IMG/VR virus record: IMGVR_UViG_3300032287_003855
Location: 1 to 37,196 of that record
Reading direction: 5' to 3' (one strand)
Source: a virus
Length of the DNA stretch: 37,196 bases
The position numbers were made by a program, and so were the translations under genes. The notes under the pieces were generated by a model. The model saw nothing but the letters and a program-made list of their open reading frames with translations, was not told the DNA's origin and made no database searches. Shown here one piece after another: positions 36,356-36,977 of this stretch. The first letter of the stretch is position 1. Each line of letters starts with the position of its first letter.

Positions 36356-36368
36356 ACTATACATTTTG

Positions 36369-36687
36369 TGGAGGTGAGGGGAGTCGAACCCCTGTCCAAA
36401 CCATGATCAATAATACAATTTATACAGCTTTTAGGTAATCAACTCAGTTGACGACTCCACCACTCTGTTTAATCTAACAGAGAAATCTTTTTAATTTAGG
36501 CTGCTACAGCAACTTCTTCTCCTAATAAAGAGAATACTTTGTTCATGTTAGCTTCGATTTGTGCGTTATCTCCTTGAGACACTACACGCAAGTTAGTATT
36601 GCCATTTAATTAATTCACCTTAGTTTACAGTTATCTCTCTGGCTGATTGTATTACCTACTAATGACCTGTCAAAACCAGTCACCCCC
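36369..36687 (-). ncRNA. ssrA: Transfer-messenger RNA (tmRNA)
   Basis: The 319-nt RNA has the full tmRNA layout. The acceptor 5' arm GGGGGTG (36687-36681) pairs with CACCTCC (36376-36370), including the G3-U70 pair that marks alanine charging. The D-like segment ACTGGTTTTGACAGG follows. The T arm AGGGG/TTCGACT/CCCCT is intact (36393-36377). A long-range P2 helix pairs TAATACAAT with ATTGTATTA. The discriminator A is at 36369; CCA is not encoded. The tag frame ends GEEVAVAA then TAA. If the resume codon is the TCT after GTAGTG, the tag is 27 residues, starting SQGDNAQIEA; the exact resume codon is inferred. tmRNA with SmpB rescues stalled ribosomes and tags the protein for proteolysis. Bacterial tags usually end ALAA; here AVAA. 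Confidence 0.93.
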
Positions 36688-36888: not shown

Positions 36889-36902
36889 ACTCTTATCTTT
36901 AG

Positions 36903-36977
36903 TTGCAGGGGAGGGATTCGAACCCTCGTCATTTGGCTTATGAAACCAAGCTGGAACCATCTCCAGTCCACCCTACG
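36903..36977 (-). tRNA. tRNA with CAU anticodon (Met-type; Ile-lysidine not excluded)
   Basis: The 75-nt cloverleaf has T arm GAGGG/TTCGAAT/CCCTC, anticodon arm TTGGT/TTCATAA/GCCAA with anticodon CAT, and acceptor CGTAGGG opposite CCCTGCA, with a C1-A72 mismatch and a G-U pair. The D region is two bases longer than usual (stem CTGG/CCAG, connector TGGA). C1-A72 recalls initiator tRNA, but the three G-C pairs of the initiator anticodon stem are absent, so elongator Met or tRNA-Ile2 is likelier. No CCA is encoded. Confidence 0.85.

Follow-up and report, generated by a model that had tools for sequence, protein, structure and literature searches.

tmRNA tags are mostly treated as short degrons. 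Whether a phage gene can encode a tag of another kind, and what such a tag might do in the infected cell, is the question raised by one locus of the 37,196-nucleotide viral stretch analysed here (the window). A preliminary description of this DNA had placed at the locus a complete tmRNA whose tag is unusually long and ends in AVAA.

Identity and structure of the tmRNA gene

The tmRNA model RF00023 matches the minus strand at 36687-36366 with 87.4 bits (cmscan, E 8.7e-33; gathering cut-off 47 bits), the only RF00023 match in the 37,196-base record. The alignment spans the model from 1 to 374, end to end, so the gene order is that of a one-piece tmRNA and not of the circularly permuted, two-piece form. 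Of the two programs suggested earlier for checking the region, the covariance model recognizes the gene, while ARAGORN gives no tmRNA call on the window. The elements of the gene and its immediate neighbour are as follows.

36366..36687, minus strand: tmRNA gene, 322 nt (RF00023, cmscan)
36681..36687, minus strand: acceptor stem P1, 5' strand GGGGGUG, pairing with 36376-36370
36370..36376, minus strand: acceptor stem P1, 3' strand CACCUCC, with U70 opposite G3
36377..36393, minus strand: T arm AGGGG-UUCGACU-CCCCU, stem pairing in relatives
36642..36653, minus strand: P2 helix, 5' strand AAUACAAUCAGC
36412..36428, minus strand: P2 helix, 3' strand GCUGUAUAAAUUGUAUU
36614..36641, minus strand: near-invariant 28-nt segment CAGAGAGATAACTGTAAACTAAGGTGAA, pseudoknot-1 region by position (alignment A2)
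36463..36482, minus strand: hairpin CUCUGUUAGAUUAAACAGAG just past the tag stop, P5-like by position (alignment A2)
36369, minus strand: discriminator A at the 3' end, followed by CAA, not CCA
36902..36977, minus strand: tRNA-Met (CAT), just upstream of the tmRNA on the same strand (ARAGORN, RF00005)

Among 47 distinct full-length relatives, every cell of the acceptor stem is paired (329/329), as is every cell of the T stem (235/235, with 12 different stem sequences), and the G3-U70 pair is invariant (47/47). The covariation score of P1 and the T stem in alignment A2, which comprises 34 sequences, was reached by none of 500 shuffles. In P2 of the window gene, AAUACAAUCAGC pairs with GCUG(UAUAA)AUUGUAUU, and compensatory variants occur among relatives, for example GTTAATGT/ACATTGAC in Calle. 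With a model score above the cut-off, an acceptor bearing G3-U70, a T arm showing compensatory change, and P2 all in place, the proposal of a complete phage tmRNA is confirmed. Both stem sides of the hairpin at 36463..36482 also change among the relatives in A2 (e.g., CTTAG/CTAAG in L010), and a wider block around it is common to the short-tag phage cr128_1. Single-sequence folding of the whole gene gave a z of -2.0, by a method that is of no use for pseudoknots.

The encoded 3' end of the window tmRNA reads ACAA (36366-36369), and those of relatives read ACTA, ACGA, ACTT, ACAG, or ACTG. Since ACAA is encoded instead of CCA, the latter must be added post-transcriptionally. Much of the 3' half of the tmRNA varies in length among the phage members, and for this reason the activity of every one of them is not assured. 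In one long-tag phage tmRNA (L094:3485-3530, minus strand), the T loop is interrupted after GAGGGTT, an intron being the probable cause.

The tRNA-Met upstream of the tmRNA is also found in relatives L005, L007, and L014. Packaging and structural genes lie downstream, all on the minus strand; the terminase, portal, and head proteins of the record match phage families, and crAss-like phages top the terminase matches in the phage collection at about 25% identity.

Resume codon and length of the tag

The tag frame was read as follows.

36499..36603, minus strand: tag frame, 35 codons, GNTNLRVVSQGDNAQIEANMNKVFSLLGEEVAVAA; resume codon GGC at 36603-36601
36498-36496, minus strand: tag stop codon TAA

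An experimentally derived rule has the tag frame fixed by U at -5 together with A at -4 (U85/A86; PMC2481249). In the window gene, the five nucleotides before the resume codon are TAAAT, which puts U and A in these two positions and is followed by GGC and an open frame of 35 codons ending in TAA. The same five nucleotides stand in host tmRNAs, as in TTAAAT|GGCGAAAATAAC, with the same geometry as in the phage genes. Of 92 distinct tag coding sequences, 91 have TAAAY or TAATT before GGC, GGA, or GAC (the exception, L283, has TAACT), a uniformity that is in part by construction because the tag-reading script sought a context of this general kind (TAA-N-Y before the resume codon). Locus L280 does not fit the context.

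The frame ending in GEEVAVAA before a stop, as first described, is found again. The start is another matter: a tag of about 27 codons from the TCT at 36579 had been proposed, and whereas its frame and unusual length hold, its start does not, because the conservation of TAA-N-Y followed by GGC, GGA, or GAC across relatives points to 35 codons. TCT 36579 lies eight codons downstream of GGC 36603 in the same frame, and the UAGUG just before it resembles the UAGUC context of Escherichia coli; GTAGTR is nevertheless present in only 32 of the 47 relatives, against the near-universal TAA-type context. An internal start at the invariant ATG was likewise rejected, because the upstream Q and A-N keep their amino acids while their codons change synonymously. 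By sequence comparison, GGC at 36603 is thus the most likely resume codon and 35 amino acids the most likely tag length. A short tag identical to that of the host, the outcome that would have spoken against the original proposal, is not what the locus encodes, as the tag has 35 residues and a different core. Where ARAGORN does call relatives, it usually misplaces the tag start, and the long-tag trait is therefore hidden in current annotations.

A conserved core within the phage tags

Collecting the related genes gave 85 distinct phage tags of 24-49 amino acids, with an A-N-M core in 84 and an AA end in 80; their consensus core is QxxANMxxV. Part of this set came from searching for the core itself, so the fair figure is that of a tag-blind set, in which loci were found only via the 5' segment CAGAGAGATAACTG...AAACTAAGGTGAA (a pattern scan of the 28-nt segment at 36614..36641): QxxANMxxV is present in 35 of 36 complete tags, L254 being the exception, and two further tags run off the end of the locus. 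L254 and L282 hold one related tmRNA with a 49-aa core-less tag, GNIDNDAQEVVDINYTFSTPMMVVHKGERKSVSPSQDLSWGTRQVAIAA. The window gene combines QxxANMxxV in the resume frame, a tag above the family minimum of at least 24 amino acids, and the CAGAGAGATAACTG...AAACTAAGGTGAA segment. Its core lies at:

36523..36561, minus strand: conserved tag core QIEANMNKVFSLL (invariance, pN/pS, predicted helix)

An alignment of 28 diverse tags shows no change at Q, A, N, and M and hardly any at V. AlphaFold predicts a helix over residues 10-34 with moderate confidence (mean pLDDT 76.5). The Callevirus tag GNNTNAVNAQIEANMEAVNAILNLEVAVGV (L096:2001-2362, Calle_1; L101, phi38:1) has the core and ends in GV (VAVGV), not AA.

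A conserved stretch within a tmRNA could in principle reflect RNA structure or DNA-level recombination and not a function of the peptide, and among close relatives the core is indeed nearly identical even at synonymous sites, with the tag halves flanking it exchanged between tags. Across lineages, however, the third codon position of the core is the most variable (entropy 1.13 vs 0.78 and 0.51), and among 69 distinct cores pN/pS is 0.39 in the tag frame vs 0.81 and 1.29 in the two others, with four codons used for the invariant Ala and two for the Asn while the amino acid stays unchanged. Tag length also varies widely between relatives, yet the frame runs uninterrupted to a stop. Since third positions vary most and pN/pS is lowest in the tag frame, it is the peptide that is conserved, and an explanation at the RNA or DNA level appears highly improbable. 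The identity of the tmRNA, its resume codon, the length of the tag, and the peptide-level conservation of the core are supported by sequence.

The origin of the core was also sought among other sequences. That a phage protein was the source of the core, or has it in common with the tag, was rejected, as no motif match was found among the 5,948 ORFs of the 16 phage genomes searched, in PDB chains, in Pfam, or in plasmids. The presence of the core in bacterial tmRNAs was rejected as well: across some 85,000 genomes of bacteria and archaea, a strict core DNA pattern gave 49 matches, all of them outside a tmRNA context.

Distribution among phages

Homologues occur in many viral contigs and in isolate phages, namely FpV4 of Flavobacterium psychrophilum and its kin, in which the tmRNA is unannotated, Cellulophaga phage phi14:2 (Crassvirales), and phi38:1 and Calle_1 (Pervagoviridae). 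The last two belong to Callevirus of Cellulophaga and are unrelated to the Crassvirales carriers; for Callevirus Calle, the accessible part of PMC8776804 notes no more than the presence of one tmRNA gene. The long-tag tmRNA is carried by many phages of Flavobacteria-type hosts. The upstream sequence is long enough for the comparison in 37 terminase relatives: 17 of these carry the tmRNA, located about 3 to 3.6 kb upstream, and the other 20 are without it there; in seven of those lacking it at that place, a search of the full record gave at most weak sub-threshold matches. Its presence in only part of these relatives marks the tmRNA as an accessory gene.

Possible function of the tag and its partner

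We put at about even the chance that the gene is a functional tmRNA whose tag has two parts, an AA-type degron and an upstream helix for docking a host factor. We regard the tmRNA half of this reading as well supported and the docking as inferred. The host AlaRS would charge the phage tmRNA with alanine via G3-U70, host SmpB would bind it, and it would enter ribosomes stalled on broken mRNA during infection, the stalling presumably arising from mRNA decay. Translation would resume at GGC 36603, append Ala and the 35-residue tag, and then terminate normally. The C-terminal A-V-A-A tail may deliver the product to a ClpXP-type AAA+ protease of the host, while an amphipathic helix would dock, through its invariant Q-x-x-A-N-M-x-x-V face, a host adaptor, unfoldase, or protease. 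Such docking would alter the choice of machine that handles the tagged protein, or the speed at which this happens. A docking helix is the best reading of the core, and it is plausible that the long tag redirects tagged proteins or alters their turnover, as the preliminary description had surmised. The VAVGV end of the Callevirus tag, which is not a typical ClpX-type tail, speaks against this reading.

Two other readings of the tag were weighed. Trans-translation may be quite ordinary and the long tag a degron read by Lon or FtsH, with the core as the protease recognition sequence. There is precedent in the Mollicute Mesoplasma florum, whose longer-than-standard tag, ending in NYAFA, is recognized by its Lon (PMC9382460), and Lon is known to recognize hydrophobic-rich stretches (PMC11986505), to which the V, F, L, and L of the core may be compared. 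Most phage tags nevertheless keep the Ala-Ala end, unlike NYAFA, and Bacteroidota hosts retain short tags ending in LAA or MAA; as these hosts keep ordinary short tags, there is no hint that a loss of ClpXP forced a switch. We consider this reading conceivable, if fairly unlikely. The tag might instead be mainly something other than a degron and let tagged fragments, or the free peptide, work for the phage, whether by inhibiting or occupying a protease or defence factor of the host or by protecting phage fragments from turnover. The invariant core, its phage-only distribution in the searches done, the long variable linker between core and tail, and the one lineage ending in VAVGV would all suit such a role. 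Given that 80 of the 85 tags have the usual degron end AA, and that the motif is without match in the PDB chains, Pfam, and phage ORFs searched, it seems unlikely.

For the two-part tag, the identity of the docking partner can be narrowed. No SmpB was found in 16 phage records of the long-tag clade. Calle_1 was found to have no protein family in common with two or more of the three other carrier lineages examined (FpV4, phi14:2, and G127), nor did a sequence search, from which small fast-evolving partners could escape, give a family that all carriers have and the non-carriers lack. Because Callevirus shares the tag but no such family, and none tracks the tmRNA, the genomic evidence makes a host factor the more likely partner. 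An 80-aa protein (MAKTAAWQRKEGKSPSGGLNQKGRDSYNKANPG...; L331, phage record G127) was considered as a phage partner, being present in four of five carriers and none of seven non-carriers, but it is absent from other carrier lineages; its co-occurrence with the tmRNA in the clade is probably coincidence. A broader proposal, which we advance tentatively and with some doubt, is that Bacteroidota phages evolved their own long helical QxxANMxxV tag, one that none of the bacteria sampled uses and whose binding to a host factor takes over stalled products and forms a phage-dedicated branch of ribosome rescue.

Significance

In the literature covered on phage tmRNAs and tags and on F. psychrophilum and Cellulophaga phages, the tag family is undescribed, which is weak evidence of novelty as subscription papers fall mostly outside that coverage. 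The shared core of the phage tags appears to be unreported; tmRNA databases may already contain individual members of the family. A long tag with an invariant motif across unrelated phages would imply altered ribosome rescue in infection, and the invariance of an internal motif would imply a defined binding partner. The tag family offers a testable route to a Bacteroidota protein-turnover factor and might supply a new orthogonal degradation tag.

Comparison with known tmRNAs

The closest cellular counterpart is the tmRNA of Bacteroidota hosts (RF00023), which shares with the phage gene the tRNA-like domain, G3-U70, P2, the TAAAT|GGC context, and the Ala-Ala end of the tag. All 72 readable Bacteroidia tags are 8-10 amino acids long and of the GENNYALAA type. 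The count covers tags plausibly readable by ARAGORN (a few genes gave none) as a sample of the class, and 25 of them come from a search within Flavobacteriales, the order to which a Fluviicola genome belongs. Host tags are thus short, as stated in the preliminary description, and the long phage tag ending in AVAA does differ from them: its 35 residues fall outside the host class and include QxxANMxxV, which is absent from the sampled hosts, and the phage 3' end is not encoded as CCA.

Phage-borne tmRNAs are themselves known. Those of the mycobacteriophages of the Bxz1/Cali group and of Bacillus phage G appear in PMC4131195, and PMC11915505 gives 79 phage tmRNA sequences; these share with the window gene their location on a phage genome, and the accessible portions of both sources describe no conserved long phage tag. 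The Mollicute tag resembles the phage tag in being longer than standard. It differs in being cellular, in having no reported QxxANM core (PMC9382460), and in its NYAFA end, where the window tag ends in AVAA. The E. coli ssrA tag is a two-part tag with an SspB site and ClpX/ClpA sites (PMC9382460), and the phage tag, in the layout proposed here, would likewise combine an upstream docking element with a C-terminal protease element; the ssrA tag has 11 residues and no comparable core, and the phage tag is without an identified adaptor.

Within Crassvirales, permuted tmRNAs also occur, since the gut phages cr7_1 (L098:1974-2209) and cr124_1 (L099:1974-2209) match the permuted model RF04321 with 66 and 63 bits. 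A further member of the order, cr128_1 (L100:1713-3020, NC_055885), has an unannotated tmRNA with a group I intron (RF00028, 86 bits) inserted in its T loop; an endonuclease gene is annotated on the other strand. A 44-nt block of its 3' half is 88% identical to that of the window gene and the GGC resume position is the same, whereas its tag, GNTYRAAA, is short and host-like, and the intron sets it apart as well. As the body of this tmRNA is related and its tag is short, the tag and the tmRNA body can evolve apart.
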